Both the position numbers and the translations under genes were made by a program. DNA of 64,000 nucleotides from a bacterium (GTDB taxonomy: Bacteria > Auribacterota > UBA3054): the NCBI GenBank assembly GCA_017963805.1, contig JAGCTE010000055.1, positions 1-64,000 on the forward strand, read 5' to 3'. Positions 21,764 through 64,000 of the stretch are shown piece after piece (positions within the stretch are counted from its first letter, which is position 1; each line of letters begins with the position of its first letter). The notes below the pieces were generated by a model, which saw only the letters and a list, made by a program, of their open reading frames with translations, ran no database searches and was not told the DNA's origin.

Positions 21764-21769
21764 CAAAAA

Positions 21770-22783: not shown

Positions 22784-22807
22784 ATATCTCCTTTAAAGTT
22801 TTTTGGG

Positions 22808-23812: not shown

Positions 23813-23814
23813 TA

Positions 23815-24804: not shown

Positions 24805-24809
24805 TTTTA

Positions 24810-25835: not shown

Positions 25836-25838
25836 AGC

Positions 25839-43263: not shown

Positions 43264-43328
43264 GACTCTACCAATAAAACTTGGAAAACTTTAATCAACA
43301 AACATACAATCCCGAAAGGGGGGAAAAC

Positions 43329-44099: not shown

Positions 44100-44133
44100 A
44101 TTGAAAATTAACCAACTGAGATAAGGATAAATT

Positions 44134-44877
44134 ATGAAAAAACTGTTTCTTCTTCTGACCATCGCCTGCGCGACTGTGGCGTTCGCTGAAAACCAGACGC
44201 TTTTCAGCATTGACTTCGAGGAAGGCGAAGGCTACGCCGAAGGCAAAGTTGCCGGCCAGAACGGCTGGGACAAGCTGGCCTGGTGGGCTAACGACGAGGT
44301 CTTCGTTGTCAACGACGAAACCGCGGCCGCTTCCGGCAGCCAGTTCATCGAAAGCAATCCCTCCGGCGTCAACGTGCAGCTGAACGGCATCGACATTTCC
44401 GAAAGCTACGTCGCCGGCTCCAAACTCCTGGTGAGCGCCTACGGCCAGGCCAATTTTGTTGAAGGCGGCCAGACCATGAGCGTCAGATTCCACTGCCTCG
44501 GCACATCCGGCAAAGGTTACGACGTGGAGATCGCCGAGTTCAACTTCAATCAGGACGGCAGCGGCAACGCTTTCGTTTCCGGTAAGAACATGACCTTCGA
44601 AGGCCTTGAAAAGGGCCAGTACTACAAATTCGGCGTCCAGATCGACCCCGCCACCAAAGGTGTGGAGAAGATCTTCGTGGGCGAGAATTCCTATGAAGGC
44701 GAAGGCATGACTTACAAGAGCGCCACGGCGGAAGGCTGCGGCTCTTTGCCCGACGGTATCCGCATTTACAACGGCGCCGGCAAACTGGACAATTTCAAGA
44801 TCGAAGTGGTCCCCGAACCGGCCTTCTTAGGCCTTCTGGCCATCGCCGGTCTCTTCTTCGCGAGGAAGCAGAGATAA
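44134..44877 (+). CDS. Small PEP-CTERM secreted protein (type B), duplicate of the next gene
   Basis: This encodes 247 residues, with an AAGGAT site before the ATG. Signal peptide (MKKLFLLLTIACATVAFA), one lectin-like module (DFEEGEGYAEGKVAGQNGW) and tail VPEPAFLGLLAIAGLFFARK. It has the same length as the protein at 45020 and, by eye, about 85 percent identity, with identical stretches such as SNPSGVNVQLNGIDIS and SYEGEGMTYKSATAEG. This indicates a recent tandem duplication. A strong terminator follows. Role: exported, exosortase-sorted surface or matrix protein (inference). Confidence 0.82.
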   Translation: MKKLFLLLTIACATVAFAENQTLFSIDFEEGEGYAEGKVAGQNGWDKLAWWANDEVFVVNDETAAASGSQFIESNPSGVNVQLNGIDISESYVAGSKLLVSAYGQANFVEGGQTMSVRFHCLGTSGKGYDVEIAEFNFNQDGSGNAFVSGKNMTFEGLEKGQYYKFGVQIDPATKGVEKIFVGENSYEGEGMTYKSATAEGCGSLPDGIRIYNGAGKLDNFKIEVVPEPAFLGLLAIAGLFFARKQR

Positions 44878-44902
44878 GTTCCGCAAAATCGCGAGATTGC
44901 GC

Positions 44903-44940
44903 AAAAAAAGAGACCGCCTGAGAAGGCGGTCTTTTTTTTT
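44903..44940 (+). terminator. Terminator after the PEP-CTERM gene at 44134
   Basis: GACCGCC at 44912-44918 pairs with GGCGGTC at 44925-44931 around TGAGAA, preceded by A7 and followed by T9. Near-identical stems close the next three small PEP-CTERM genes. Confidence 0.88.
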
Positions 44941-44944
44941 ACGT

Positions 44945-44973
44945 TTGATTATCAAACGCTTTTTTGATAGAGT
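44945..44973 (+). promoter_or_regulatory. Promoter/leader block 1 of the small PEP-CTERM array
   Basis: TTGATT at 44945-44950 and TAGAGT at 44968-44973 are 17 bases apart, with a TTTTTGA run before the -10. The 45 bases that follow (GTTTTTAAAC..GATAAT..AAATTG.GAGGAAG) are conserved in the leader at 45854. Confidence 0.55.
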
Positions 44974-45019
44974 ATCTCATGTTTTTAAACAGATAATCCA
45001 AATTGTGAGGAAGGTTATT

Positions 45020-45763
45020 ATGAAAAAAATGTTTCTTCTTCTGACCATCGCCTGCGCGACTGTCGCGTTCGCTGAAAGCCAGCCGCTTTTCAGCATCGGC
45101 TTCGAGGAAAGCGAAGGCTACACCACCGGAACGTTGGTCGGCCAGAACGGCTGGAAAGAGCTGGCCTGGTGGGCTAACACCGAGGTCTTCGTTGAAAACG
45201 ACGAGAACGCGGCCGCTTCCGGCAGCCAGTACATCGAAAGCAACCCCTCCGGCGTCAACGTGCAGCTGAACGGCATCGACATTTCCGAAGGCTACGTCTC
45301 CGGCTACCCGCTTTTGGTGAGAGCCTACGGCCAGGCCAATTTTGTGGAAGGCGGCCAGCCCATGAGCGTCAGGTTCCACTGCCTCGGCACATCCGACAAG
45401 AGCTACGACGTGGAGATCGCCGAGTTCAATTTCAATCAGGACGGCAGCGGCAACGCTTACGTGACCGGCAAGAACATGACCTTCGACGGCCTTGTTGAAG
45501 GCCAGTACTACGAATTCGGCGTCCAGATCGATCCCGCCACCAAGACGGTGGAGAAGATCTTCGTGGGCGAGAATTCCTATGAAGGCGAAGGCATGACTTA
45601 CAAGAGCGCCACGGCGGAAGGCTGCGGCAGCCTGCCCGACGGCATCCGCATTTACAACGGCTCCGGCAAACTGGACGACTTCTCCATTGAAATGGTCCCC
45701 GAACCGGCCTTCTTAGGCCTTCTGGCTATCGCCGGTTTGTTCTTCGCGAGAAAGCAGAGATAA
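45020..45763 (+). CDS. Small PEP-CTERM secreted protein (type B), duplicate of preceding gene
   Basis: The start is placed at the ATG at 45020 (247 residues), which follows a GAGGAAGG site and begins the signal peptide MKKMFLLLTIACATVAFA. The frame extends upstream to 44897, but that 41-residue stretch crosses the previous terminator and the promoter, so it is not coding. Lectin-like module (GFEESEGYTTGTLVGQNGW) and tail VPEPAFLGLLAIAGLFFARK are as in the gene at 44134. Differences cluster in the first 60 residues and at scattered surface-type positions, as expected of diverging duplicates. It has its own promoter and terminator, unlike most duplicated genes in one operon. Confidence 0.82.
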   Translation: MKKMFLLLTIACATVAFAESQPLFSIGFEESEGYTTGTLVGQNGWKELAWWANTEVFVENDENAAASGSQYIESNPSGVNVQLNGIDISEGYVSGYPLLVRAYGQANFVEGGQPMSVRFHCLGTSDKSYDVEIAEFNFNQDGSGNAYVTGKNMTFDGLVEGQYYEFGVQIDPATKTVEKIFVGENSYEGEGMTYKSATAEGCGSLPDGIRIYNGSGKLDDFSIEMVPEPAFLGLLAIAGLFFARKQR

Positions 45764-45790
45764 GTTCCGCAAAGCAACGGGACTTAATTA

Positions 45791-45824
45791 AAAAGAGACC
45801 GCCTGAGAAGGCGGTCTCTTTTTT
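45791..45824 (+). terminator. Terminator after the PEP-CTERM gene at 45020
   Basis: AAAAGAGACCGCC pairs with GGCGGTCTCTTTT around the same TGAGAA loop used by the previous terminator, ending in six T residues. The shared loop supports duplication of gene plus terminator as one unit. Confidence 0.88.
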
Positions 45825-45853
45825 CGCGCAGGCCGGGGTAATTCAAAAACCGG

Positions 45854-45881
45854 TTGATTATATAACCTTTTTTGATAAAGT
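45854..45881 (+). promoter_or_regulatory. Promoter/leader block 2 of the small PEP-CTERM array
   Basis: TTGATT at 45854-45859 and TAAAGT at 45876-45881 are 16 bases apart in the context TTTTTTGATAAAGTATC. The following leader (GTTTTTAACCTGATAATTGA, then AAATTGCGAGGAAG) closely matches block 1. Confidence 0.55.
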
Positions 45882-45927
45882 ATCCCGCGTTTTTAACCTG
45901 ATAATTGAAATTGCGAGGAAGAATGTT

Positions 45928-46734
45928 ATGAGAAAAATTTTCGCGCTTCTTATTATTGTCTGCGCTGCTTCAGCCATGGCGGCATCAGCCCCCGCGTGGT
46001 ACTGCGATTTTGAGGAAGCAGAGGGTTATGTGCCCGGCAATGTGATCGGCCAGCCTGCCAGCGCTCCGTCCGCTAATCGATGGACCTGGCAATACACCAG
46101 CGCCAAAAACATGCAATGGGTTGCAAACGATCCGACCATCGCCACTTCCGGCTCGCAGTTTTTGTCCTACAATCCTGATGTCACAGATACCAAGGGTTAC
46201 GCGATCGTGAGATTCGACGTTTCCAGCGAGTACCAAGCTGTTTCCAACGGCAAGATCCTAGTAAGCTGGGATATACGCAGCATGGATGGTACATCAGATT
46301 CGGACATCCCACTTTTTATCCTTTACAATTTCGGATCCTCGGGAAAGAAATACGAGATAGAGATCTGCCGCTTTAAACTCGGCTGGACATACGCGGATTT
46401 TACAGCCAGCAAGCAGGACAAGTCAGGCACAGCAGACGTTAGAGTAAGTAGTACGGTTGATATGACGAAGTGGCATCACTGTGCGGTGCTTCTTGATCCC
46501 TCAAACAGATTGATCAATGAATTCAAGTTCGACGGCACGGTGATACCGGGCTGCACCGACATGTACTATAAGAACGAGTGCGACGGAAAAACGCGCGGCG
46601 GCGACCTTATCGACGGCGTTGGCATTAATAAAAGGGGACGTATCGACAACATCAAAGTCGAAGTGATCCCCGAACCGGGGTTCTTTGGGCTTCTGGCTTT
46701 TCTGGGTTTGTTCTTCGCCAGAAAGCAGAGATAA
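45928..46734 (+). CDS. Small PEP-CTERM secreted protein (type A)
   Basis: This encodes 268 residues with signal peptide MRKIFALLIIVCAASAMAA and a GAGGAAG site upstream. A single lectin-like module (CDFEEAEGYVPGNVIGQ) follows. The pre-tail block MYYKNECDGKTRGGDLIDGV is almost identical to that of the gene at 43329. The tail is IPEPGFFGLLAFLGLFFARK. Codon use in the middle is slightly more AT-rich than in its neighbours, as in the gene at 43329. It is a single-gene transcript between leader block 2 and a GAGACCGCC-type terminator. Confidence 0.8.
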   Translation: MRKIFALLIIVCAASAMAASAPAWYCDFEEAEGYVPGNVIGQPASAPSANRWTWQYTSAKNMQWVANDPTIATSGSQFLSYNPDVTDTKGYAIVRFDVSSEYQAVSNGKILVSWDIRSMDGTSDSDIPLFILYNFGSSGKKYEIEICRFKLGWTYADFTASKQDKSGTADVRVSSTVDMTKWHHCAVLLDPSNRLINEFKFDGTVIPGCTDMYYKNECDGKTRGGDLIDGVGINKRGRIDNIKVEVIPEPGFFGLLAFLGLFFARKQR

Positions 46735-46762
46735 GCTTCGCTGACCGGCGAGACTTAAATGG

Positions 46763-46797
46763 AAAGGAGACCGCCTTGTTGGGCGGTCTCTTTTTTT
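46763..46797 (+). terminator. Terminator after the PEP-CTERM gene at 45928
   Basis: GAGACCGCC at 46767-46775 pairs with GGCGGTCTC at 46782-46790, loop TTGTTG, then T7. The stem is the same as in the preceding array terminators; the loop differs. Confidence 0.88.
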
Positions 46798-46836
46798 GGG
46801 TCGGTCTGGGTTTACGCTAAGAATTGTTAAAACATA

Positions 46837-46865
46837 TTGTTTTTAAAATCCATTTTTGATAAAAC
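46837..46865 (+). promoter_or_regulatory. Promoter/leader block 3 of the small PEP-CTERM array
   Basis: TTGTTT at 46837-46842 and TAAAAC at 46860-46865 are 17 bases apart, again with TTTTTGA before the -10. The leader keeps GATTTTAACCTATAAT but is otherwise diverged, so it is the oldest-looking copy. Confidence 0.5.
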
Positions 46866-46908
46866 GCCCGCCGATTTTAACCTATAATAAAAAACTAGGA
46901 GAAACACT

Positions 46909-47706
46909 ATGAAAAAACTCTTTGTTATTCTGACTGTTATCTGCGCCGTTTCCGCCATGGCTGAGACCAAAACTTTGTGGAGCTGCGGCTTCGAGGCCGA
47001 AGAAGGCTACCAGACCGGCAAAGTCGTCGGCCAGTGCGGCTGGTATAAGGCAACCGGCACCATAACAACGAGAGACGTGGTCGCGGAAGACCCGGGCGAA
47101 GCCGCCTCCGGCGACCAGTATTTGTCTTATGATCCGTCCGTCACCGACAAGGGCAAAGTCACGGCCGTTAAATTCGACATTTCCGACGAGTATGTCATAG
47201 CTCCTTACAACCAGCTCCGCATCAGCTGGGATCAGGCCAGAATTTCCAGAGACTACAGGGACGACACCTGCTACGTCATTCTTCACAACTTCGGAGAAAC
47301 CGGAAGATCCGCCGACATCGAGATCGCTCGTTTAAGACTGGAGAACAATTATGCCGGTTACACGGGCACCAAGGCTGACAAGTCCGGTCAGCTCAACGTT
47401 ACCATAAACATGTCCAATCCTGATGATTGGCATCACTGCTGCATAATTCTTGATCCGGCGAACAGAATGGTCAAGGAATTCACCGTTGACGACGTTGTGA
47501 TCGACGCTTGCACCGACACCTACTACAAGAACGAATCCGACAGCGCCAGCAGCACCAGAATTCCCCGCGGCGGCGAGCTCATAGACGGCATCGGCGTCAT
47601 GAACAAGGGCAAATACGACAACTTCAAAGTCGAACTGATCCCGGAACCGGCCAGCCTCGGCCTTCTGGCTCTGCTTGGCCTGTTCTTCGTCAGGAAGGAA
47701 AGATAA
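46909..47706 (+). CDS. Small PEP-CTERM secreted protein (type A, diverged)
   Basis: This encodes 265 residues; a TAGGAG site lies 10 bases before the ATG. Signal peptide MKKLFVILTVICAVSAMA, one lectin-like module (CGFEAEEGYQTGKVVGQCGW), then TYYKNESDSASSTRIPRGGE, a version of the type A block with an insertion. Tail IPEPASLGLLALLGLFFVRK. It has a paired HCC motif (DDWHHCCIILDPANRMVKEF) where paralogues have HH(F/C). A single-gene transcript; role as for the other array members. Confidence 0.8.
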   Translation: MKKLFVILTVICAVSAMAETKTLWSCGFEAEEGYQTGKVVGQCGWYKATGTITTRDVVAEDPGEAASGDQYLSYDPSVTDKGKVTAVKFDISDEYVIAPYNQLRISWDQARISRDYRDDTCYVILHNFGETGRSADIEIARLRLENNYAGYTGTKADKSGQLNVTINMSNPDDWHHCCIILDPANRMVKEFTVDDVVIDACTDTYYKNESDSASSTRIPRGGELIDGIGVMNKGKYDNFKVELIPEPASLGLLALLGLFFVRKER

Positions 47707-47732: not shown

Positions 47733-47768
47733 AAAAAGAGACCGTTCGTTTGGACGGTCTCTTTTTTT
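47733..47768 (+). terminator. Terminator after the PEP-CTERM gene at 46909
   Basis: GAGACCGT at 47738-47745 pairs with ACGGTCTC at 47754-47761 and runs into T7. The stem is the array type with the central GCC changed. Confidence 0.85.
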
Positions 47769-47778
47769 GTCCTTTGAT

Positions 47779-47807
47779 TTGCCAAAAAAACACATTTTTG
47801 CTACGAT
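47779..47807 (+). promoter_or_regulatory. Promoter for the GH92 gene
   Basis: TTGCCA at 47779-47784 and TACGAT at 47802-47807 are 17 bases apart with TTTTTGC before the -10. The ATG at 47843 follows an AGGAGGA site. Confidence 0.55.
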
Positions 47808-47842
47808 TAACAGGAATTAATCTAAAATCCAGGAGGAACTTT

Positions 47843-50056
47843 ATGTCACGTTTCTGTTTGCTTCTTTTGGGGCTGCTTTCTTTTAACCTGGCCGGCTGTT
47901 TCGAGAAGACCGGCCCGTGCGGTCCCTGCGAGACCGCTCTCGAGGACAAGACGGATTACACGGCTTTTGTGGACACGTCCATCGGCACGTCTTTCAACGG
48001 GCACACCTTCATAGGCGCCACGATGCCTTTCGGCTTCGTGCAGCCGGGCCCGGAAAGCGGCGACGACGGCTGGGGTTACTGCTCCGGCTACCGTTTCGAG
48101 GACAAAGTTTTCTCCGGCTTCGCCCAGACAGCTATTTCCGGAACGGGCGTAGGTGACTTGGGCGACCTTCTGTTCATGCCCTTCATCGGCGAAGCGCAGA
48201 ACAGCACGAACTTCTATGAATGTCCCGTCAAGAAGGAAACGGAAAAATACGCTCCCGGCTACTATGCCATTGAGCTTGACCGCTTCAATGTGAAGGTCGA
48301 GACCACCTGCTCGGACCATACGGCTATCTACCGCCTTGTCTATCCCAAGGGCGAAGAGCAGAAGATCATGCTCGACTTCGCGAACTGCATCGGCGACGGC
48401 GACGAGGAGAGAGTCTACAACCATGAGCTGACTTTCCCGAACGACACCACGATGCTCGGCACGACGGAAAAGGGCGGCTGGGTGCACCGCCAGTACAGCT
48501 TTAAAATAGAATTCAACCGTCCCATCAAGCATCACTTCCCCCTGGAGAAGAGACTTTCCAAGAAGGGCAAGAAGGAACGCAGCGGCAGGGAGATCTTCGT
48601 CTTCGAACCGAGCGACGAGCCCTTGATGCTTAAGATCGCCCTGTCGACGGCCGACACCGACGGCGCCGCCAGGAATATGGAAGCCGAGATCCCGGGCTGG
48701 GATTTCGAAGGCGTTAAACTGGCCGCGCACGACGCCTGGAACAAGCTTTTAGGCAGAGTGAAGGTGGAAGGTTCGGAAAAGGAAAAGAGAGTCTTCTACA
48801 CCTGCATGTACCACGCCTTCGTCGCGCCCAGCAACATCGCGGACGTCGACGGCCGCTACAGAGGCCCCAACGGCAAGATCAGCAAGGCCGAGAACGGGAA
48901 GTATTATTCCACGCTTAGCACCTGGGACACCTTCAGGGCGCTGCATCCTCTTCTGACGCTCGTGGTCCCGGAGATGGTGCCGGATCTCGTCAGCTCGATG
49001 GTCGAGCATTTCAACCAGGCCGGATATCTTCCCATCTGGGATCTGTGGGGCAAGGACAACCAGTGCATGATCGGCACGCACTCCATCCCGCCCATGGTCG
49101 ACGCTTACTTCAAAGGCCAGGTCCCGGAAGGCTTGGACATCTGGACTTCCATAAAAGACACGCTCACCAAAAAGCACGACGGCCGCTGGAGGGAAGAGTG
49201 GGAATACCTGGAAGACCCGGGCTATTATCCCTGCGACAAGTGGTCCGAATCCGTCTCCTGCACGCTGGAGTGCGCCTACGACGACTGGTGCGCCTACAAG
49301 CTCGCGGAAGCGCTGGAGAAGAAGGGCTTGGTCGGAAAAGAAGACGTTGAGTACTTCAAGAAGCGCTCTGAGAACTGGAAGAACCTGATCGATCCCGAGA
49401 CCGGTTTCGCCAGGCCCAAGAAACTCGACGGCACCTGGAAGAAAGACTTCGACCCGACCAAAGTCGGCGGCGACTTCACGGAAGGCAACTCCTGGCAGTA
49501 CACCTGGCACGTCATGCAGGATCCCGAAGGCTTGATCGAGGCTTTGGGCGGCAAGGAGAAAGCGCTGGCGAAGCTGGAATCCCTCTTCGAGCAGGAAGAG
49601 AAGACCGACCGCCTTGTGGACGTCACCGGTTTGATCGGCGAGTACGCCCACGGCAACGAGCCGAGCCATCACGTCGTCTATCTGTTCCCGTATTTCGGAC
49701 GCCCGGAAAAGACCGCTGAGCTTGTCAAGAAGATCTGCGACGAACTCTACGACGACACGCCGGAAGGCATCTGCGGCAACGAGGACTGCGGACAGATGAG
49801 CGCCTGGTACGTCATGAGCACAATGGGCTTCTATCCTATGAACCCCTGCGGCGGCGAATACGTCTTCGGCCTTCCGCGCTTCTCGAAAATGACCCTTTCC
49901 GTCCCTGGTCAGAAGACGCTTGAAATAGAAGCCAAGAACATCGAGAACGGCAAGAAAATAAAGAGCGTGAGCTTGAACGGCAAAAAGATCGAGGGCTTCA
50001 CTATCAACCACTCCGATCTTGTCAAGGGCGGAAAGCTCGTTTACGAATTGGACTAA
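47843..50056 (+). CDS. GH92 alpha-1,2-mannosidase-family lipoprotein
   Basis: The start is at ATG 47843 (737 residues), after a strong AGGAGGA site; the frame extending to 47750 overlaps the terminator and promoter. The signal MSRFCLLLLGLLSFNLAGC ends in a lipobox. GH92 features include DTSIGTSFNGHTFIGATMPFG near residues 40-60 (N-terminal sandwich domain), WDTFRALHPLL (about 362-372), DYEGNSW-like GDFTEGNSWQYTW, and CGNEDCGQMSAWYVMSTMGF (about 642-661) with the acidic residues of the calcium/active site. The family removes mannose from host or fungal high-mannose glycans by a calcium-dependent inverting mechanism. The PEP-CTERM gene 36 bases downstream is probably co-transcribed. Confidence 0.93.
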   Translation: MSRFCLLLLGLLSFNLAGCFEKTGPCGPCETALEDKTDYTAFVDTSIGTSFNGHTFIGATMPFGFVQPGPESGDDGWGYCSGYRFEDKVFSGFAQTAISGTGVGDLGDLLFMPFIGEAQNSTNFYECPVKKETEKYAPGYYAIELDRFNVKVETTCSDHTAIYRLVYPKGEEQKIMLDFANCIGDGDEERVYNHELTFPNDTTMLGTTEKGGWVHRQYSFKIEFNRPIKHHFPLEKRLSKKGKKERSGREIFVFEPSDEPLMLKIALSTADTDGAARNMEAEIPGWDFEGVKLAAHDAWNKLLGRVKVEGSEKEKRVFYTCMYHAFVAPSNIADVDGRYRGPNGKISKAENGKYYSTLSTWDTFRALHPLLTLVVPEMVPDLVSSMVEHFNQAGYLPIWDLWGKDNQCMIGTHSIPPMVDAYFKGQVPEGLDIWTSIKDTLTKKHDGRWREEWEYLEDPGYYPCDKWSESVSCTLECAYDDWCAYKLAEALEKKGLVGKEDVEYFKKRSENWKNLIDPETGFARPKKLDGTWKKDFDPTKVGGDFTEGNSWQYTWHVMQDPEGLIEALGGKEKALAKLESLFEQEEKTDRLVDVTGLIGEYAHGNEPSHHVVYLFPYFGRPEKTAELVKKICDELYDDTPEGICGNEDCGQMSAWYVMSTMGFYPMNPCGGEYVFGLPRFSKMTLSVPGQKTLEIEAKNIENGKKIKSVSLNGKKIEGFTINHSDLVKGGKLVYELD

Positions 50057-54427: not shown

Positions 54428-54457
54428 GGCATTTTGGCAGTATTAAAGGATGTATTG

Positions 54458-55186
54458 ATGAAAGAAACGCTGAAAAAACTTGTCGAACTTCAGGGCATCG
54501 ACAGCGAAAAGCTCGACTTGAAGTACAAAAGACAAGAAGTGCTCAACGGCCTAGTGGCTGACAAAAAGGATTACGAGTCCTTGGAACGTCGCGTGGCTGA
54601 AGAGAAGCAGCGTCAGCAGAGCATCAGGGAAGACGGGCTGCGTCTCTCGCGCGAGCAGGCCCAGCTTGAAGCCAGGGACAGCGAGCTCAGAAAGCGGCTC
54701 GACATCGTGAGGAACACCGCCGAGAGCCAGGCTGTCGGCCGCGAGATAGTCGCCAACGAGAACAAGCTTCAGGAGCATTTCGAGAAGGTGGACCGTCAGC
54801 ATTCCGACCTTGAGGAAAGCCTTCAGAAACTAGCCAGCCTGCAGTCCCAGTTCTTTGCCAAGAGAGCCGAGCTTGCTGAAAAAATGCCGGCTATAAAGGA
54901 AACGCTTGCCGCCATGGACAAGGAGATCGCCAAGGTCGACGCCAGGCGCAAAGCCCTCTGCTCCGGCATTCCCCAGGTCGTTATGCATCAGTATACGGAC
55001 CTTATCAGGACCAGGGCCCCGTACATGGTCGTGGAAGTTCAGACGACCAGCGACGGCGACCACACCTGTTCCGGCTGCAACATCGGATTGCCGCCTCAAG
55101 TGATAGGCGACATAATGAAAGGGGATCAGCTGGTCTGCTGCGAAAACTGCGGCCGGATCCTTTATCTGGCTGACAAAGAAGAATAA
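54458..55186 (+). CDS. C4-type zinc-ribbon, coiled-coil protein
   Basis: The start is placed at ATG 54458 (242 residues), 8 bases after AAAGGA; a TTG at 54434 is the alternative. Residues about 1-165 are a long antiparallel-type coiled coil (LVELQGIDSEKLDLKYKRQE onwards). The C-terminal zinc ribbon has CSGC near 203 and CENC near 229, surrounding a GLPPQVIGDIMKGDQLV loop. This architecture defines the CT398-like / DUF164 family of cytosolic proteins of unclear function, possibly nucleic-acid or protein binding. It ends 40 bases before rnpB, with a terminator between. Confidence 0.85.
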   Translation: MKETLKKLVELQGIDSEKLDLKYKRQEVLNGLVADKKDYESLERRVAEEKQRQQSIREDGLRLSREQAQLEARDSELRKRLDIVRNTAESQAVGREIVANENKLQEHFEKVDRQHSDLEESLQKLASLQSQFFAKRAELAEKMPAIKETLAAMDKEIAKVDARRKALCSGIPQVVMHQYTDLIRTRAPYMVVEVQTTSDGDHTCSGCNIGLPPQVIGDIMKGDQLVCCENCGRILYLADKEE

Positions 55187-55581: not shown

Positions 55582-56538
55582 ATGACTGAACGAATCAAAA
55601 TATTCTTATGCCTCCTCCTTTACTCCGGCGCCCTTCTGGCGGCGAATTACGACGAGAAAGCGGGGGAGAGTTTCAACCTTGGCCTCGCCTGCGTCAGGAG
55701 CAACGATTTCCGCTCCGCCCTCCGCAGCTTCAGGCAGGCGACGCAGTACGACGCGTCTTTCGCCGCGGCGTATCTCAACATCGCCGCCTGCCACGAGCGT
55801 TTGGGAGAATTCGACAAGGCCAGGCCCTTTTATGAAAAAGCCCTTAAGCTCGAATCTGACAACGCCAATTTCGCCTTTATTTACGCCGGCGCGCTATTGC
55901 GGCACGGCGAAATTTACGAAGGGAAGAAATATCTCGAGAGCGCCGTCTACGCCGAACCGGCCAACCCGGATTATGTCTACGAACTGGGCTTGACCTGCCT
56001 TGTGCTCACCCAGAAAGTCGAGGCGGCAAAATGTTTCAGGGCCGCCGTTGACATCTCCACGAACTACAGCGCGGCCTGGTTCAGGCTCGGCGTGCTGGAA
56101 TTGGAAGGCAAAAACACCAACGAAGTCCTGAGGCTTTTGGAAAAGGTCGAGCTCGACTGCGACCTGGCTCCCCAGGCCTACCTCCTGAAGAGCCGCATCA
56201 GGAAAAAACTGAAAGATCTTCCCAAGGCCGAGAGCGACGTCAGGATGGCCCTGAAACTGTCGAAGGGCTACGAGGAAGCCTACCTTACGCTGGCGCAGAT
56301 CCTGCGCGAGGAAAAGAAGTACCGCGAGGCTTGCGAAATGCTTGAGCGCGTGGAGCTGAGATCGAACCGAAGCAACTGGTCCGCGCTCATAGGAAAGCTC
56401 TACGAGGAGTGGGGTGACGAGCGCCTTGCGCTGGGCGAGAAGGAAACGGCTCAGACCCTTTACAGACAAGGGCTGCGCTTCCTTCCGGAAGATCCCGCGC
56501 TTATGAGAAAATCCGGGGCGGCAAGCGGCGCGAAATAA
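55582..56538 (+). CDS. Exported TPR-repeat protein
   Basis: This encodes 318 residues. The N-terminus MTERIKIFLCLLLYSGALLA is a signal peptide, so the protein is periplasmic. At least five tetratricopeptide units follow, with the W/A-G-F-P pattern: FNLGLACVRSNDFRSALRSF (30-49), AYLNIAACHERLGEFDKARP (63-82), FIYAGALLRHGEIYEGKKYL, YELGLTCLVLTQKVEAAKCF and further units to about residue 300. It probably mediates protein contacts in the envelope. The ATG stands 5 bases after the rnpB terminator with no Shine-Dalgarno, so expression may depend on read-through or a leaderless start. The pilus operon lies downstream behind its own promoter. Confidence 0.82.
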   Translation: MTERIKIFLCLLLYSGALLAANYDEKAGESFNLGLACVRSNDFRSALRSFRQATQYDASFAAAYLNIAACHERLGEFDKARPFYEKALKLESDNANFAFIYAGALLRHGEIYEGKKYLESAVYAEPANPDYVYELGLTCLVLTQKVEAAKCFRAAVDISTNYSAAWFRLGVLELEGKNTNEVLRLLEKVELDCDLAPQAYLLKSRIRKKLKDLPKAESDVRMALKLSKGYEEAYLTLAQILREEKKYREACEMLERVELRSNRSNWSALIGKLYEEWGDERLALGEKETAQTLYRQGLRFLPEDPALMRKSGAASGAK

Positions 56539-56564: not shown

Positions 56565-56593
56565 TTGACAATAAAAGACGATTCAAGTAGAAT
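56565..56593 (+). promoter_or_regulatory. Strong sigma-70-type promoter for the pilus/secretin operon
   Basis: TTGACA at 56565-56570 and TAGAAT at 56588-56593 are exactly 17 bases apart. The start site would be near 56600, giving a leader of about 95 bases. Confidence 0.78.
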
Positions 56594-56609
56594 ATTCTCA
56601 AGTTTTATA

Positions 56610-56670
56610 CGGCGGATTTTAATCTGTTTTCGCCGTGTGAATTCGCAATAACCCTTCCCGGGAGACCGGG
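56610..56670 (+). other. Structured 5' leader of the pilus operon
   Basis: Two hairpins can form in the leader: CGGCG (56610-56614) with CGCCG (56631-56635), and CCCG (56657-56660) with CGGG (56667-56670). No T tract follows either, and the ribosome-binding site at 56684 is left free. A regulatory role is only a possibility. Confidence 0.35.
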
Positions 56671-56694
56671 GCTAACTCAAAACGAAGGAAAACC

Positions 56695-58371
56695 GTGGCA
56701 GACAAAAAGGTTGTGAGTATTGACCTAGGTCGCGAAGTCGTGAAATTCGCGTTCGCGCAGGTCAGTAAAGGCAGCGCTAAGCTCACCGGATGTCAGAGCG
56801 TTACTCTCGAAGTCGCCCATGACGCCGACGACAGCACTTGGCGCGCCGCTGTTTTGGAAGTGCTCAAGCAGCAGAAAGCTGCTGGTTCTCTGGACAAAAA
56901 ATCCGAAATATACGTTACTCTTCCCAACGCTCAGGTCCTCACCAGAGCCCTGAAGATCCCCACTGCGGAACTGCAGGCCCAGATCGAGGAAGAGGCTAAG
57001 AAAAACCTTCCTCTGCCAATCGAGGAAGCCGAGTGGGGCTACAACGTCGTCGGCGAAGCCGGTGACCAGAGCCACATCTCCCTTCTGGCCGTGAAGAGCA
57101 GCGTCGTCGAAGACATCAACGCGATCTTTGAGGAAGCCGGTCTTTCCCTCGCCGGCGCCACGAGCGGCGCCCTTAACCTGGCGAACCTTCTCATCGCCGA
57201 AGGCAAAGGCAGCGTGGAAGCTCCCACGGCCGTCCTCAGCATCGGCGCTTCCTCCACGAACCTCGTCATCGCCGAGGGAACGAAAGTCTGGATGCGCGCC
57301 CTGCCCGTTTTCGGTTCCACTCTCGTCTCCGCTCTGACTTCCGGCGGCGCCTCCTACGACGAAGCCCGCAAGACGCTCCTCGAGCAGGTCGATCTCGGCA
57401 ACGCCGAATCCGACAGCAGCAAAGCCGTCGGCCAGGCTCTCTCCCGTCTCGTGATGGAGATCACCCGTTCGATCGTGAACTACCGCACGAGCCTTTCCGG
57501 CGAGAAGCCGACGCGTATCCTCCTGACCGGCGGATATGCCAAGATCAAAGGCCTCGACGCTTATCTCCAGGACAAACTTAAAACCGACACCGCCTACCTC
57601 GACGCCTTCTCCTTGGTCGAAGGCGAGAGCGGCGATTCCTTCGCGTTCGCGGAGGCTCTGGGCGCCCTGACGGCCGTTTCCGGCAAGAGCCCCTACAGCA
57701 TCAACCTCGTTCCCGCCAATCTGCAGTGGCAGCGTTCCTTCGACGGCAAGAAGCCCCTTATCATCGCCGCCGTCGCCTTGCTCGCCGTTCTCTTCGGCGC
57801 TCTCTTCTTCCTCAACCAGGGCAAGATCAGCAAAGAGACCGAACAGGCCGAGACCGCCCAGCAGACGCTTGAGGAAGCCCAGAAATACGACAAGGCCATC
57901 AAGCAGATCCAGAAAGATATCCAGACCCAGCTGGCCGAAAACGAAGTTTACGGCCGCCTGCTCTGGGAAAGGGAAGCTTACGTTTACACGATCTCCCAGC
58001 TCGCCTCCAAGATGCCGACCAACATGTGGCTCTACGGCGTCAGGAGCTTCACTCTCGGCGATATCTCCGAGGAAAACGCCCTCTCCAGCAACGCCAGCGA
58101 CATCCTCGTCATCAACAATGACGAAGACGCCAAGACGCTTGTCAGGATCGGCATCGACTGCGGTTACTACGGCAACTGGGCCGAGGCTATGGGCGACATC
58201 CAGAAGCTCGTGGCCGAGACCGTCGGCAACGCCGGTTTCGTGGTCGGCCGCGACCTTCCCTGGCTCAAGTACACAGAACTTCAGATGGTGATCGACCTTG
58301 ACTGGAACAACAACGGCAAGGACGATTTCTCCGAATATAAAGAAAAATTCAGCCTCAAATCCGGCCGTTAA
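56695..58371 (+). CDS. pilM: PilM-PilN fusion protein of a type IV pilus-like apparatus
   Basis: This encodes 558 residues from a GTG start 5 bases after GAAGGA. Residues about 1-330 are the actin-like PilM/ATPase fold (SIDLGREVVKFAF, LSIGASSTNLVI, RILLTGGYAKIKGLDAYL). Then INLVPANL at 336-343 matches the INLLP motif by which PilN tails dock into PilM. A transmembrane helix (about 350-372) and a PilN-like coiled coil and small domain follow. PilM and PilN are normally separate proteins, so this fusion makes the interaction intramolecular. The assembly links cytoplasmic motors to the inner-membrane ring of the pilus. First gene of the operon. Akkermansia Amuc_1101 is the PilM-type relative in a similar locus. 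Confidence 0.85.
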   Translation: MADKKVVSIDLGREVVKFAFAQVSKGSAKLTGCQSVTLEVAHDADDSTWRAAVLEVLKQQKAAGSLDKKSEIYVTLPNAQVLTRALKIPTAELQAQIEEEAKKNLPLPIEEAEWGYNVVGEAGDQSHISLLAVKSSVVEDINAIFEEAGLSLAGATSGALNLANLLIAEGKGSVEAPTAVLSIGASSTNLVIAEGTKVWMRALPVFGSTLVSALTSGGASYDEARKTLLEQVDLGNAESDSSKAVGQALSRLVMEITRSIVNYRTSLSGEKPTRILLTGGYAKIKGLDAYLQDKLKTDTAYLDAFSLVEGESGDSFAFAEALGALTAVSGKSPYSINLVPANLQWQRSFDGKKPLIIAAVALLAVLFGALFFLNQGKISKETEQAETAQQTLEEAQKYDKAIKQIQKDIQTQLAENEVYGRLLWEREAYVYTISQLASKMPTNMWLYGVRSFTLGDISEENALSSNASDILVINNDEDAKTLVRIGIDCGYYGNWAEAMGDIQKLVAETVGNAGFVVGRDLPWLKYTELQMVIDLDWNNNGKDDFSEYKEKFSLKSGR

Positions 58372-58391
58372 CAGATGTCAAGGATAGAGCA

Positions 58392-59228
58392 ATGAAATTT
58401 GACTTACAGAAAAACAAATTGTTCCTCGTAACTCTGGGCATCGTGGTTGTCATCGTCGTGGTGACCCTGGTGCTCTGGCGCGGATCGGTCAACAGCCTGA
58501 ACGAAGCCTCCGCCAATTTCGAAACCGCCAACAGCGACTACGAAACTCTGTGCAAGAATTACAACGGCGCCCCCTGCGAGGCCCTTCAGAAAGCCTACGA
58601 GGCCGACCTCGAAGCCCTGAAGAAGCAGGCCGGCGATTTTGTCGACGCCGTCAAGACCGAAAAACTCAACGTTCTCGATCCCTCCAACTTCAAGATCGAG
58701 CTGCGCAAGTACGACAATGAAATAAAGGAAGAGCGCGAAAAACGCAACATCAGCATCTATCCCGGCGAGGGCTTCTCTGAATTCCTGGGCGACGTGGTCG
58801 CCAAGGAATCCGATATGCCGAAGCTCTCCTCCCAGTTCCAGACCGTGAAAGACGTCCTCGGCGTGCTGCTCGACAACGACGTTTTGGAAGTTATTTCTAT
58901 AGAGAGGAACCAGGGCGAACAGATGACCGATTACGAAGACGAGGAGGAATCCTTCGGCGGCGCCAGCGCCAAGAAGGAGGAAAAGGTCGCCAAGTACGAA
59001 GGCATCCCCGTTTACTTCCAGTTCGCCATCCGCCCGGACAAGATCTACAACGTTCTCTCCCAGCTGCGCGACAAGCCCTTCTTCTATATAGTGAGAAGCA
59101 TAAGGACCGACCTTCAGCCGGACCCCGTCGGAACGGTCGAAGATCCCTCCGACATCCTTGAGCGCGTTACGGTCGACATGACCGTGGAAATGATCAAGAT
59201 CAACAAGCCCGCTGAGGCCGCTAAATAA
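58392..59228 (+). CDS. Amuc_1100-like inner-membrane-anchored pilus assembly protein
   Basis: This encodes 278 residues. One transmembrane helix at about 11-31 (LFLVTLGIVVVIVVVTLVLW) is followed by a coiled coil (about 35-90) and a periplasmic domain with a PilO-like ferredoxin fold. The arrangement, composition and position next to PilM match Akkermansia Amuc_1100, a PilO/PilN-like protein known for signalling to host TLR2. Sequence similarity could not be measured here, so the match rests on layout and locus. A Glu/Asp-rich loop lies around residues 176-200. AAGGAT precedes the ATG. Role: periplasmic part of the alignment complex joining PilMN to the secretin (inference). Confidence 0.75.
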   Translation: MKFDLQKNKLFLVTLGIVVVIVVVTLVLWRGSVNSLNEASANFETANSDYETLCKNYNGAPCEALQKAYEADLEALKKQAGDFVDAVKTEKLNVLDPSNFKIELRKYDNEIKEEREKRNISIYPGEGFSEFLGDVVAKESDMPKLSSQFQTVKDVLGVLLDNDVLEVISIERNQGEQMTDYEDEEESFGGASAKKEEKVAKYEGIPVYFQFAIRPDKIYNVLSQLRDKPFFYIVRSIRTDLQPDPVGTVEDPSDILERVTVDMTVEMIKINKPAEAAK

Positions 59229-59248
59229 ATCAAGAGGATTGGTAGATA

Positions 59249-60232
59249 ATGAAAGCTTTAAATGAACATTGGGAAAAATTGCTTTTCGTGGTGATCCTTC
59301 TGATCGTTTTGGTAGTGGTAGGCAAGGCCTTCACAAGCCAGAACGACGTCGACAGCTTTGAAGCCCGCGGCGAAGCCAAGGATGTCAAGGAAAGCGCTTT
59401 GGTCGGCATTCCGGGTTTGGTCGAGATCGTCAAGGCCTCCGCGCCGAAACTGGTCAGGAACGTCTTCACCCATGACTGGCTCCAGAGAAGCACGGCCAAC
59501 CAGGCCGCTCTGACGAGAAAGTGGGGGATAACCTGCGACGAGACCGGTCAGATGATCACCTATCGCCCCGACGCTGACAACGACGGCATGCCCAACGAAT
59601 GGGAACAGAAATACGGACTCGACTGGACGAACCCCGCCGACGCCGAAGAAGATCCTGACAAGGACACCTTCACCAACATTCGCGAATACACCCTCTCCCA
59701 GGAACTGGGCGTCGAAGTGCTCCCCAAGGATCCCACCAGCCCCAACGTCGTGGCCCAGGATTGGCGCATCGGCAAAGTCTACAATCCCGAACGCGAACTG
59801 CAGCTCGGCGGCTTCACCAAAGGCGCGACGCTGCGCTTCAAATACAAAGGAAAATTCCTGCCCAAGCTCGACCTTGACGCCACCCAGTTCGAGGCCGAGG
59901 AAGGCAGGATCTTCTATATAGAGAAAGTGGAAGAAGTCACAAAGCCCGACAGAAAGGGCGTCGAGAAGTTCGACGATTACAAAGTCACTTTGAAAGACGG
60001 CGCGAGCGGCGAAGAGTTCTTCTGCATGAGAAACGAAAAGAGCCTGGAAACTTTTGGCGTGGCCGAATTCATCAGCAAAGACGACGCGAACAAGAAAGTT
60101 CTTTGCAAAGTCGGCGACGAGATCGACCTTCCGATGATCAAGAAGAGCGGCAAAGTTTCCGCCATAGACGTTGAAAACAAGACTGTCACCGTCAATGCCA
60201 ACGAGATTGACTACACAGTCACTGCTGAATAA
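59249..60232 (+). CDS. Amuc_1099-like pilus-locus protein with calcium-binding-type repeats
   Basis: This encodes 327 residues. One N-terminal helix (about 12-30, LLFVVILLIVLVVVGKAF). Residues about 108-140 read DADNDGMPNEWEQKYGLD, then DPDKDTFTNIREY: Asp-rich loops of thrombospondin type-3/EF-like repeats, frequent in Verrucomicrobia. The C-terminal 150 residues are beta-rich, ending in two SH3-like strands. Position between the PilO-like gene and the secretin suggests a PilP-like linker that contacts the outer-membrane channel. AGAGGA precedes the ATG. Akkermansia Amuc_1099 has the same place in its locus; similarity needs a search. Confidence 0.72.
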   Translation: MKALNEHWEKLLFVVILLIVLVVVGKAFTSQNDVDSFEARGEAKDVKESALVGIPGLVEIVKASAPKLVRNVFTHDWLQRSTANQAALTRKWGITCDETGQMITYRPDADNDGMPNEWEQKYGLDWTNPADAEEDPDKDTFTNIREYTLSQELGVEVLPKDPTSPNVVAQDWRIGKVYNPERELQLGGFTKGATLRFKYKGKFLPKLDLDATQFEAEEGRIFYIEKVEEVTKPDRKGVEKFDDYKVTLKDGASGEEFFCMRNEKSLETFGVAEFISKDDANKKVLCKVGDEIDLPMIKKSGKVSAIDVENKTVTVNANEIDYTVTAE

Positions 60233-60273
60233 AATAAATAATCAAGATATAACAACTGATGGAGTTAACGAGC

Positions 60274-62838
60274 ATGAAAAACACAAAAGCCCTGACAGTA
60301 GTTGCAGTCTCACTGGCTGCGATCCTGCTTCTGGCGCAGAACGTGATGGCTGAAGCTGCCGTAGACCAGGCCATGAGACAGACGGCTGCTCTTCGCGCCC
60401 AGGAATTGGCCCGCGAATTGCAGATCGAACGTCAGGAACAGCGGCAGATGGCCGACCTTTTGTTCCAGCAGGCGCTTCCCCTAATCGAACAGGGTGAGTA
60501 CCGCAAGGCGCACACGCTTCTGTCCGAAGCGTTGAAGCGCTGCCCGAACCACGTTGAATCCAACGTGAAGATCGGTCAGGTCAACAGCGCTCTCTACGAC
60601 TACTACACCTCTGTGGCTAACGACAGACTTCAGATGCGCGACTACGAGTCGGCAATCAACTTCTATCGCCAGGCTCTCGAACACAAACAGGGCGACGAAG
60701 CTCTGAACGGCATCCAGAAAGCCCGCAAGCTTCTTGAGACCGCCGCCAGCCAGCAGCTCTCCAAGATCGTCAACACCGACCTCTCCGAAGAAGAACAGGT
60801 CTACCAGATGATCAAGCAGGCTGAAGAGAAAGTCGTCTACGGTCAGTACGAAGAAGCCAAGAGCATTCTGAAGCAGGCCATCAAGCTTGAAAGCGAAGAC
60901 CCCCGTCCCCGCCGCATGCTGAGAGACGTGATCGCCAAGCAGAACAAGCTCATCAAGAGCGACCTGGAACTCGAACGTTCCCAGATCATGCTCGAAGTGC
61001 TCCGCAAGATCTCCCCGGAAGCCGCTGAAGACACCGAAGAAGTCGGCAGCGAAGCCACCGACGCTCCCGGCGAGACCGCCCGCAAGGCTATGTGGGCTAA
61101 ACTGATGACCAAGATCCCGGCTGTCAACCTTGACAACAACTCGGTTTCCGAAGCGGTCCAGTTCCTTATTGAAGAAGGCAACGTCCCGATCGTGCTGGAC
61201 GCGGCCGGCGTCAATGACAAGATCTCCCTGGATGCCGAAGGCCCGACGATCCTGACCGTCATCGAATACATCTGCGACACCGCGAATTTGAATTACACCG
61301 TGACCGGCCCCGCCGTGATCATCTCCAAAGGCGAAGGCCAGATGGAGACCAGGATCTGGACGGTCTCTCCCGGCGTGGTCTCCAAGGCCTCTGAAATAGA
61401 GACCGAAGAAAGCTCTTCCGACGCGTTCGGCGGCATCTTCGATACCGAGACCGGCAGCGATGAAGACTTCACCGCCATGGAGACCGAACCCGAGCTGGTC
61501 CGCGCCCTGAAAGACTACATCGGCGCCGAAGTCGAAGGCAGCTCCATCTTCCTGGAACCCGTTTCCGGCACCTTGGTCGCCCGCAACACCGTCAAGAACT
61601 TGGAACTCATCGACAGCTACCTGAAGAACCTCGACGAAAGCGGCGATCAGGTCCAGGTCGAGATCCAGGCCAGATTCGTCGAGATCAGCGATGAAGATCT
61701 CAACGAGATCAGCTTCGGTATGAAACTCAAGAGCCCCTGGAAAGTCGTCAGCGCCCACAACAAGAACGGCAACGCCGTCGTGGCCAACCCGACCGACTTC
61801 ACCGGCGCTCTCCGCCGCTACTCCAGAGGTTCCCGCAACAGCCGCTATGCCGACCGTCTCTCCTCCGTTATGAGCATGATCGGTGTCGGCGGCATCGGCA
61901 AGAACCAGATCTCCGACGAGGTCATCGGCTTCTTCACCAACGCTCTGACCGATCCTGAAGTTGGTCTGATCTTCAACGCGATCGACAACAAGACCAACGC
62001 TGACGTTCTCTCCGCTCCTTCAGTTACCACCGTCAGCGGCCAGCCCAGGGTCACCATCAAGCAGATCACCGAGGTCATGTACCCCGAAGATTACACGGTC
62101 TACAAACCGGCTATCATTTACAGCAACTCCCAGTCTTTCAGCTTGATCGACCCGACTGCGGGCGCCCCCAACGTCAGCGCCATGCCCGGTTACGCCACGG
62201 TTGAAAGCACTCTTAAAGAAGATGTAGGTATCGAACTTCAGGTCTCCCCGATCGTGGCCGATGACAAGCGCACGGTCAGCATGGACATCACCTGCAAGAC
62301 CTCTTCCGAGATCGAGCCCCGCACCGTTTCCGTTTACGTCGGCAACCAGGCGCTCAACGTCGACCCCATCGAACTCGACATCCCGCGCTTCAAGTTCTCC
62401 GAAGTCAAGACTCAGGTCGTGGTCGCCGACGGCGAGACCGTGGTCTTGGGCGGCATGGTCACTGAAGTTCTCCGCAAGTACAAGGACAAAGTCCCCTTCC
62501 TGGGCGACCTCCCCTTGATCGGCCGTTTCTTCAGAGCTGAAGGCAGCTACAACGAGAAGAAGCATCTTCTGATATTCGTCAAGACCAACATCATCACTCC
62601 GACGGGCGAGCTCTACCGCGACCGCGTCGCCAGCAAACTGGCTTCCTCCCTCGAGCAGGAACGCGCCGACTATGAAGAAGGCGAACAGGTCTCCGAAGCT
62701 GAAGAAGGCGAAGAAGAGAGCAGTGAAGTTGAAGATTCCACCGAGTCCGAAGAAACCAGCGAAGAAAGCGAAGCTACCGAAGAGGAAACTTCCGAAGAAA
62801 CTTCCGAGGACGAAAGCGAGGAATCCACTGAGGAATAA
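60274..62838 (+). CDS. Secretin (GspD/PilQ family) with N-terminal TPRs and acidic tail
   Basis: The start is ATG 60274 (854 residues) because GGAG lies 9 bases upstream and MKNTKALTVVAVSLAAILLL is a signal peptide; ATG 60259 in the same frame lacks a site. Residues about 55-145 contain TPR-like units (GEYRKAHTLLSEALKRCPNH, RDYESAINFYRQALEHKQGD). N-domains follow (VSEAVQFLIEEGNVPIVLDA), then the secretin domain with SAPSVTTVSGQPR, VADGETVVLGGM and VPFLGDLPLIGRFFR near residue 745. The last about 55 residues are nearly all Glu, Ser and Thr, an unusual tail. Forms the outer-membrane channel for a pilus or exported substrate. Confidence 0.9.
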   Translation: MKNTKALTVVAVSLAAILLLAQNVMAEAAVDQAMRQTAALRAQELARELQIERQEQRQMADLLFQQALPLIEQGEYRKAHTLLSEALKRCPNHVESNVKIGQVNSALYDYYTSVANDRLQMRDYESAINFYRQALEHKQGDEALNGIQKARKLLETAASQQLSKIVNTDLSEEEQVYQMIKQAEEKVVYGQYEEAKSILKQAIKLESEDPRPRRMLRDVIAKQNKLIKSDLELERSQIMLEVLRKISPEAAEDTEEVGSEATDAPGETARKAMWAKLMTKIPAVNLDNNSVSEAVQFLIEEGNVPIVLDAAGVNDKISLDAEGPTILTVIEYICDTANLNYTVTGPAVIISKGEGQMETRIWTVSPGVVSKASEIETEESSSDAFGGIFDTETGSDEDFTAMETEPELVRALKDYIGAEVEGSSIFLEPVSGTLVARNTVKNLELIDSYLKNLDESGDQVQVEIQARFVEISDEDLNEISFGMKLKSPWKVVSAHNKNGNAVVANPTDFTGALRRYSRGSRNSRYADRLSSVMSMIGVGGIGKNQISDEVIGFFTNALTDPEVGLIFNAIDNKTNADVLSAPSVTTVSGQPRVTIKQITEVMYPEDYTVYKPAIIYSNSQSFSLIDPTAGAPNVSAMPGYATVESTLKEDVGIELQVSPIVADDKRTVSMDITCKTSSEIEPRTVSVYVGNQALNVDPIELDIPRFKFSEVKTQVVVADGETVVLGGMVTEVLRKYKDKVPFLGDLPLIGRFFRAEGSYNEKKHLLIFVKTNIITPTGELYRDRVASKLASSLEQERADYEEGEQVSEAEEGEEESSEVEDSTESEETSEESEATEEETSEETSEDESEESTEE

Positions 62839-62879
62839 CTTAAATGGCAATTAAAAAAGATATAGACTTTGGAGGTCTT

Positions 62880-64000
62880 ATGAACAAAAATATGCTGAGA
62901 ATGAGCCTTATCATCGGGCTGGTCATGCTGGCGGTCTCTCCGCTTCTGGCTGCCGATGAGCAGACGTTTGAGCAGAAGGAACAGCAGCTTTTGAGCGCCG
63001 CTGAACCCGAAGTCCAGACCGAAGCCAAGGCCGAGACCATCGAAATCCCCAAGGAAGTCGGTGAGGAAGACGGTTTCTGGACCAAACTCAAAAACGCCTT
63101 CGCCACCAAAGAAGAAAAGCCCGACCTTGACAACAAGACCGAACAGGAGATCCAGGTCTTGATGTTCGAAGGCCGCACTTACTACCGCAAGGGCGAATAC
63201 AGGAACGCTCTTAACAGCTTCGCTGAAGTCACCAAGCGCGATCCCTTCAATCCGCTGGCCCGCCGCTACATGAGCAGCTGCAATGAAAAGCTTCTCCGCA
63301 TCGAGGAAGACAACGTCGACCTGACCGCTCTCCAGCGCATCCAGGACGTTGAAAAGAGCATGCTGATCCTTACCGAAAAGCAGAAGGACCGCGACGAAGC
63401 CGTCGCCAACGCCGGCATCTCCACCGTCACCGACGAGAAGATGAACCGCGTCATCAAAGAGCTCAGCTTTATCGATGAGCCGATGGTGAACGTCCTCGAG
63501 ACCATCCGCGAGGAAGCGAACCTGAACCTGGTCATGCAGCCGGCCGCCGCCAACTCCATCCAGAACGTCACTCTGACGCTCACTCTTACGGACATCTCCG
63601 TGGCCGACGCCCTTGACATGATCTGCAAGCTCAGGAAACTGAACTACAGCGTGGACGGTGAATCCATCACCATAACGACCCAGGACTCAGCCCGCATCAT
63701 CAGCAGGACCTTCCGTTTGTCCCGCGGCCTCGATTCCATCGAAGTTTTGAACAAGGAATCCCTGCGCACCCCGACCGACAAGGCCAAAGAGCTCCTCAGG
63801 CGCATCGGCGTGACGGAAGTTAAAGAAGCCTCCGTCGTGTACGACGCTAGGACCAACCAGCTGATCGTCCGTAACACCGCCGAGAACCTGGCCCTCATCG
63901 AGAAGTTCCTCAAGAACTTCGACAAGACCCCGTCCCAGGTCGAGATCGAAGCCCGTTTCGTGACTGTCAGCAACGACAACATGAACGAACTCGTTTTCCG
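62880..64000 (+). CDS. Second secretin-family protein, 3' end outside window (partial)
   Basis: The frame runs open to the right edge, so about 373 residues are visible. The ATG at 62880 follows GGAGG by 3 bases; an in-frame ATG at 62844 has no site and would put 12 polar residues before the signal peptide MNKNMLRMSLIIGLVMLAVS. A TPR-like unit (GRTYYRKGEYRNALNSFAEV) is at about 95-120. STN/N-domains follow (MVNVLETIREEANLNLVMQP, ISVADALDMICKLRKLNYSV). An NTAENLALIEKFLKNFDKTP segment then leads into QVEIEARFVTVS, the start of the secretin core, where the window ends. It is a paralogue of the secretin 41 bases upstream. Confidence 0.85.
   Translation, partial: MNKNMLRMSLIIGLVMLAVSPLLAADEQTFEQKEQQLLSAAEPEVQTEAKAETIEIPKEVGEEDGFWTKLKNAFATKEEKPDLDNKTEQEIQVLMFEGRTYYRKGEYRNALNSFAEVTKRDPFNPLARRYMSSCNEKLLRIEEDNVDLTALQRIQDVEKSMLILTEKQKDRDEAVANAGISTVTDEKMNRVIKELSFIDEPMVNVLETIREEANLNLVMQPAAANSIQNVTLTLTLTDISVADALDMICKLRKLNYSVDGESITITTQDSARIISRTFRLSRGLDSIEVLNKESLRTPTDKAKELLRRIGVTEVKEASVVYDARTNQLIVRNTAENLALIEKFLKNFDKTPSQVEIEARFVTVSNDNMNELVF

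Follow-up and report, generated by a model that had tools for sequence, protein, structure and literature searches.

Research on Amuc_1100 has treated it as a probiotic effector and, for the most part, as a pilus-like protein of the outer membrane. Its gene belongs to the MUL2 locus (Amuc_1098-1102), which has been reported in Akkermansiaceae and often in other Verrucomicrobiales; that account calls amuc_1099 and amuc_1100 uncharacterised, and the legend of its Fig. 2 names coaE and rho among the neighbours of the locus (PMC13174399). Two further systems that bear comparison are the type IVa pilus operon pilMNOPQ of Pseudomonas and Myxococcus and the type II secretion platform (GspL-GspM-GspC-GspD). 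Here, we describe an operon in the bacterial contig JAGCTE010000055.1 (assembly GCA_017963805.1) that shares homology and gene order with Amuc_1098-1101 and very probably encodes the alignment complex and the outer-membrane secretin of a machine of the type IV pilus kind. The whole stretch that was analysed, hereafter the window, comprises bases 1-64000 of this contig of 67,635 bases (C28 in our numbering), which comes from a genome of 2.05 Mb in 74 contigs with a completeness of 93.5%.

Operon layout and synteny with the MUL2 locus

The operon is a run of close-packed genes on the + strand (56695-65234) that encodes PilM, a PilO-like protein, a calcium-repeat protein and two secretins. Downstream of the second secretin lie a polA 5'-exonuclease domain, then coaE and then the start of rho. 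The features of the region are as follows:

55582..56538, + strand: secreted tetratricopeptide repeat (TPR) protein; TPR repeats found by family scans, PilW/Tgl-type models below cut-off
56565..56593, + strand: promoter-like site TTGACA-17-TAGAAT, 101 bases 5' of the PilM start codon
56695..58371, + strand: PilM-PilN fusion, Amuc_1101-like; Pfam, NCBIfam, PDB and profile matches
58392..59228, + strand: PilO-like protein of the Amuc_1100 superfamily; NCBIfam, profile and predicted fold
59249..60232, + strand: Amuc_1099-like calcium-repeat protein in the PilP position; weak NCBIfam match, alignment and profile
60259..62838, + strand: secretin 1 with N-terminal TPR repeats; Pfam and NCBIfam
62844..64000, continuing to contig position 65234, + strand: secretin 2, cut by the window end; NCBIfam

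A preliminary description of this DNA had noted that the first four genes of the run occur together, and these proved to be intact open reading frames with family matches, separated by only 20, 20 and 26 bases; it had missed the second, tandem secretin as well as the polA 5' domain, coaE and rho behind it. The reverse-strand reading frames opposite the operon were taken as its antisense shadow. The NCBIfam matches of the five proteins follow the gene order, with Amuc_1101_fam at 1.9e-57, Amuc_1100 at 3.9e-19, Amuc_1099_fam at only 0.0017 and Amuc_1098_fam at 1.2e-70 and 1e-59, and none of the five reached the equivalog cut-off. The promoter-like site, at which the interval of the preliminary description begins, agrees with the consensus at 11 of 12 positions; because it lies between the TPR gene and PilM, the TPR gene may be transcribed apart, outside the likely operon, but the region has four such sites against 2.3 expected, which makes this weak evidence.

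For comparison, five loci from Akkermansia or Akkermansiaceae (L093-L097) were fetched. All six genes, 1102, PilM, 1100, 1099, secretin and coaE, were called on one strand in L094, and the genes called in L095, L096 and L097 stand in the same order; in L093 only PilM was kept during reading-frame picking, as longer antisense frames displaced the rest. The transcribed order in Akkermansia is 1102-1101-1100-1099-1098-coaE and then rho, the last being taken from L097, in which the secretin is succeeded by coaE and rho. In the window the genes run PilM-1100-1099-secretin-secretin-polA 5' domain-coaE-rho, so that the earlier statement that its gene order is opposite to that of Amuc_1098-1102 had to be withdrawn; the apparent reversal is due to the locus-tag numbering, which runs from Amuc_1098 to 1102 against transcription. 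The homology and the synteny are directly visible in these comparisons, and the TPR-bearing secretin is a further common feature. In contrast to the MUL2 locus, the taxonomic order to which the window belongs lacks Amuc_1102 (MUL2A), carries a TPR gene in its place and has two secretins, a polA 5' domain stands between secretin and coaE, PilT is missing from the genus, and the window's proteins are only 21-27% identical to those of L097.

The first protein of the operon (558 residues) is matched by Pfam PilM_2 (1.5e-20) and by PilM in the PDB (1.1e-8). It consists of a PilM part (about residues 9-311), a membrane helix as read from the sequence (about 355-375) and a PilN-like periplasmic part. 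A profile of 19 C-terminal parts from this family found PilN 3jc8_Na at 1e-9, and Pfam PilN was matched in 8 of the 19 members, the window's own member being without such a match. Together with the PilO-like protein, the P-position protein and the secretin, this PilN-like C-terminus shows that the operon follows the pilMNOPQ plan with M and N fused. It has the order M-N-O-P-Q in common with the type IVa operons, roles being assigned by homology for M, N, O and Q, and homologues of PilM, PilN, PilO and PilQ occur together in it. It differs from them in the fusion of PilM with PilN, in a P-position protein that bears calcium repeats and for which a PilP fold could not be demonstrated, and in the missing PilT.

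The P-position protein (327 residues) has a membrane helix, calcium-binding D-x-D-x-D-G repeats and a beta-rich C-terminal part. Its own sequence had no Pfam match at E<=1; Pfam TSP3_bac was found in 11 of 16 relatives, the calcium-type Asp pattern was invariant in all 16 alignment rows of the Amuc_1099-like proteins, and the profile of these proteins recovered the 1099 proteins of Akkermansia with E values of 9e-10 to 2.5e-9 or better. Position is the sole ground on which 59249-60232 is assigned to PilP, and the protein would presumably do PilP's job. A variant was observed in the family f17 (L044 9019-10623 and L046 1669-3276), where helix-hairpin-helix (GspK-like) repeats are inserted in the 1099-like protein.

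The PilO-like protein and Amuc_1100

The product of 58392-59228 (278 residues) scored 69.2 bits against the NCBIfam Amuc_1100 model NF038287, under its equivalog cut-off of 180 bits, and we therefore term it a relative and not an equivalog of Amuc_1100. A single-sequence search of the PDB sequences gave no match, which made a profile necessary. When a profile built from 19 relatives within the phylum was used, the crystal chains of Amuc_1100 came out on top (6kny and 6lad at E 1.6e-12, 6laf at 1e-9), and nothing else was better than 0.01. The AlphaFold model that was built from the alignment of the 19 relatives had a mean predicted local distance difference test (pLDDT) score of 76 and a predicted template-modelling score (pTM) of 0.60. 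In a Foldseek search with this model, the ten top rows were all Amuc_1100 chains (E 2.4e-9 to 4.5e-8), followed by PilO 3jc8_Oa (7e-4) and 2rjz_A (8.9e-4). VIA-align gave Z 16.0-16.9 for three Amuc_1100 entries, with 2.6 A over 165 residues for 6kny_A, and Z 7.1-7.5 for GspL or PulM domains. The PilO-like fold is directly apparent in the predicted structure, and the model together with the profile indicates that the protein is a true, distant relative of Amuc_1100 and, more distantly, of PilO. On this point the earlier proposal is borne out, as the likeness to the Amuc_1100 crystal structure exceeds that of a generic PilO fold. We also considered a generic PilO and nothing more, which the profile match to the Amuc_1100 chains rules out together with the fold comparison (Z 16.5 for 6kny_A against Z 9.4 over 98 residues for PilO 2rjz_A).

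The relatives are widespread. The collection holds 44 genomes of the window's phylum, and Akkermansia's phylum was sampled from a larger group in it, so that the two phyla differ there. Amuc_1100-family matches were found in 29 of the 44 genomes, none of them over the cut-off, and in 187 of the 240 drawn from Akkermansia's phylum, a count that takes in weak matches down to E 1e-3, with 23 of the 240 over the cut-off. As a control search with NF038287 also matched Bacillus subtilis below the cut-off, isolated weak matches to this model mean little. Besides that of the window, 20 neighbourhoods were fetched from the 29 genomes, 8 from the same order and 12 from other families; PilM was present in all 20 and adjacent to 1100 in 18, more than expected by chance, and the polA 5' domain and coaE were each found in 13 of the 20, several loci being cut by contig ends. 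The locus does occur outside Akkermansia, as had been pointed out previously, but with the family in so many genomes of two phyla it is ordinary there, and the pilus apparatus of which the Amuc_1100 relative forms part is likewise ordinary and widespread. No paper that describes the locus outside Verrucomicrobia proper was found in our literature searches, and the available portion of the MUL2 account does not mention the window's phylum (PMC13174399).

It had been supposed that a true relative at 58392 would extend a host-active protein family to this lineage. Such a relative, signalling through Toll-like receptor 2 (TLR2), would be in line with the homology and the fold that it has in common with Amuc_1100, and recombinant Amuc_1100 was reported to induce TLR2 (PMC5332112). 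Such an activity nevertheless appears very improbable: the protein shares 21.2% identity over 260 residues with its counterpart in the Akkermansiaceae locus L097, the N-terminal helix is predicted to anchor the protein in the inner membrane as a part of the assembly machine, and the family is spread over two phyla. Moreover, the same paper describes dose-dependent TLR2 signalling for purified, unrelated A. muciniphila enzymes, namely a sulfatase, a sialidase and a glycoside hydrolase (PMC5332112), and the TLR2 read-out therefore does not mark the Amuc_1100 family. The case for a special extension of the host-active family is weakened, and deducing TLR2 activity from homology is not supported. 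The position of Amuc_1100 in the PilO place of a pilMNOPQ-type operon common to two phyla suggests an initial, testable role for it within the cell envelope, and it cautions against deducing host activity from the mere presence of the gene.

Pilus machinery and the type II secretion alternative

Pilin, ATPase, PilC and prepilin-peptidase genes were searched for elsewhere in the genome, and all were found. Two tandem PilB-type ATPases and PilC are located on contig C12, ten prepilin signals were counted and a single prepilin peptidase lies on C69; a tandem pair of PilB-size ATPases is also present in four of four Akkermansia genomes. Pilus genes adjoin the operon itself in some relatives: in G001, the 1102-pilMN-1100 genes are immediately preceded by pilT (430 bits, cut-off 319), pilB and pilC, and pilin-type genes were found upstream of the operon in L044, L045 and L056. 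In the machine that we propose, the PilM-PilN fusion, the Amuc_1100-like PilO and the Amuc_1099-like protein would form a link from the cytoplasm and inner membrane to the TPR-bearing secretin pore, the PilB-type ATPases and PilC would polymerise pilins processed by the prepilin peptidase, and the fibre would exit through the secretin. These parts presumably work together in the window's organism, and the fibre would not be retracted since PilT is missing from the genus.

Several observations weigh against a type IV pilus-type machine. The PilB proteins scored 602 and 615 bits, under the NCBIfam PilB cut-off of 675.65 bits (PilC was also below its equivalog cut-off), and, apart from GspG-like and Verru_Chthon-like sequences, no major pilin could be recognised. 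The structure model of the Amuc_1099-like protein (pLDDT 83) had no match to PilP, with no Foldseek row at E<=0.001 and a best VIA Z of 4.3, and Pfam gave no PilP match for the protein in the P position either. Finally, the retraction ATPase PilT was found in none of the eight genomes of the window's genus at E<=1e-60, so there is no complete retractile type IVa pilus; as the eight assemblies are independent, loss through incomplete assembly is unlikely.

Some of these points would also fit a type II secretion-like core that exports proteins, such as glycan-degrading enzymes, by means of a short pseudopilus and has no surface fibre. The genus is without PilT, the pilin-like genes are scored either as GspG-like or as minor pilins of the Verru_Chthon kind, and Pfam T2SSM_b was matched in 4 of the 19 relatives of the PilO-like protein. 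The layout of GspL, a fused ATPase-like and PilN-like protein, resembles that of the PilM-PilN fusion, and GspM- and GspL-type folds came next below PilO for the PilO-like model (Z 7.1 to 7.5). We nevertheless consider this explanation unlikely, because a distinct type II secretion set is already present elsewhere in the window's genome, with GspD on C6 (398 bits, cut-off 351), GspE on C46 (649 bits, cut-off 630) and GspG-, GspM- and GspF-like genes. It is further opposed by the pilT-pilB-pilC genes that adjoin the operon in G001 and by the wide presence of PilT, which was over the cut-off in 35 of the 44 genomes of the phylum and in all four Akkermansia or Akkermansiaceae genomes; a type IV pilus-type machine remains the preferred reading.

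C46 also encodes a second PilM-like protein (L080 10233-13999, 772 residues, Amuc_1101_fam 139 bits). It adjoins a GspM-like protein that ends in a PDZ domain and lies beside GspE and GspG; these genes make up a type II secretion platform of their own.

Loss of Amuc_1102 and PilT, tandem secretins and neighbouring genes

In ten loci from other families, PilM is preceded by a gene for a secreted protein of about 200 residues that belongs to Amuc_1102. The profile of these proteins matched PDB 7dsz at 4.9e-8 and the Akkermansia 1102 proteins at 1.6e-12 to 5.8e-12, and NF042424 was found in all five tested (best 8e-10). Outside the window's order, the profile matched 14 of 29 genomes of the phylum, all with E values of 1.7e-41 or lower, and ten of these matches follow by construction; among the 15 genomes of the order, that of the window included, the profile search found none, two matches at E 0.04-0.06 being noise. 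The place of Amuc_1102 is taken by the TPR gene in all eight same-order loci besides the window and in none of the 12 loci of other families. PilT was lost at the level of the genus; all seven other genomes of the order have it.

The order's lack of Amuc_1102, whose position is occupied by the TPR gene, its two tandem secretins and the lack of PilT in the genus are new. The losses, of Amuc_1102 at the order level and PilT at the genus level, are what remains of interest in a locus that is otherwise mostly ordinary. For the fibre of Akkermansiaceae, attachment to glycans or particles has been proposed in the literature, but the MUL2A subunit is absent from the window's order. It is conceivable, if rather doubtful, that the genus has a non-retracting variant, with MUL2A and PilT lost and two different secretins, that acts as a fixed attachment fibre or a secretion device and not as a mucin- or particle-gathering pilus. 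The losses that have occurred in nature, together with the doubled secretin, reveal which components of the machine are separable and provide comparisons for testing the role of MUL2A.

Secretin 1 (859 residues; Pfam secretin 2.3e-29) has N-terminal TPR repeats, as does its Akkermansiaceae homologue, and secretin 2 (796 residues) is 28.5% identical to it over 649 aligned residues. Tandem secretins occur in the window's order and again in the families f6 and f17. In the secretin tree, the first and the second secretins of the order form one group each, and the tandem pairs of f6 (99/97) and f17 (92/90) group by family, with a warning from the program about long branches. This grouping by family gives a hint that the tandem secretins may have arisen by repeated, separate duplication. 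Two stand-alone small secretins of 475-480 residues (L008 8327-9769 and L009 394-1821) were found apart from any pilus genes, one of them after phosphate-type ATP-binding cassette transporter genes as read from the sequence.

A zinc-ribbon coiled-coil protein (54434-55186) with a weak CdsZ match (62.7 of 275 bits) is encoded before the TPR and pil genes, and its gene has the same position in 7 of the 8 same-order loci fetched. Farther upstream, a series of similar membrane proteins, several of which share an N-terminal motif, adjoins a DUF6754 gene (20798-26819); three were scanned and none had a Pfam match. In a row of related secreted proteins of about 250-290 residues (43281-47706), inspection of the sequence showed that each has a motif resembling FE..EGY..G...GQ.GW close to its start, and the one member scanned was without a Pfam match. 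The row is followed by a glycoside hydrolase family 92 enzyme (47750-50056).

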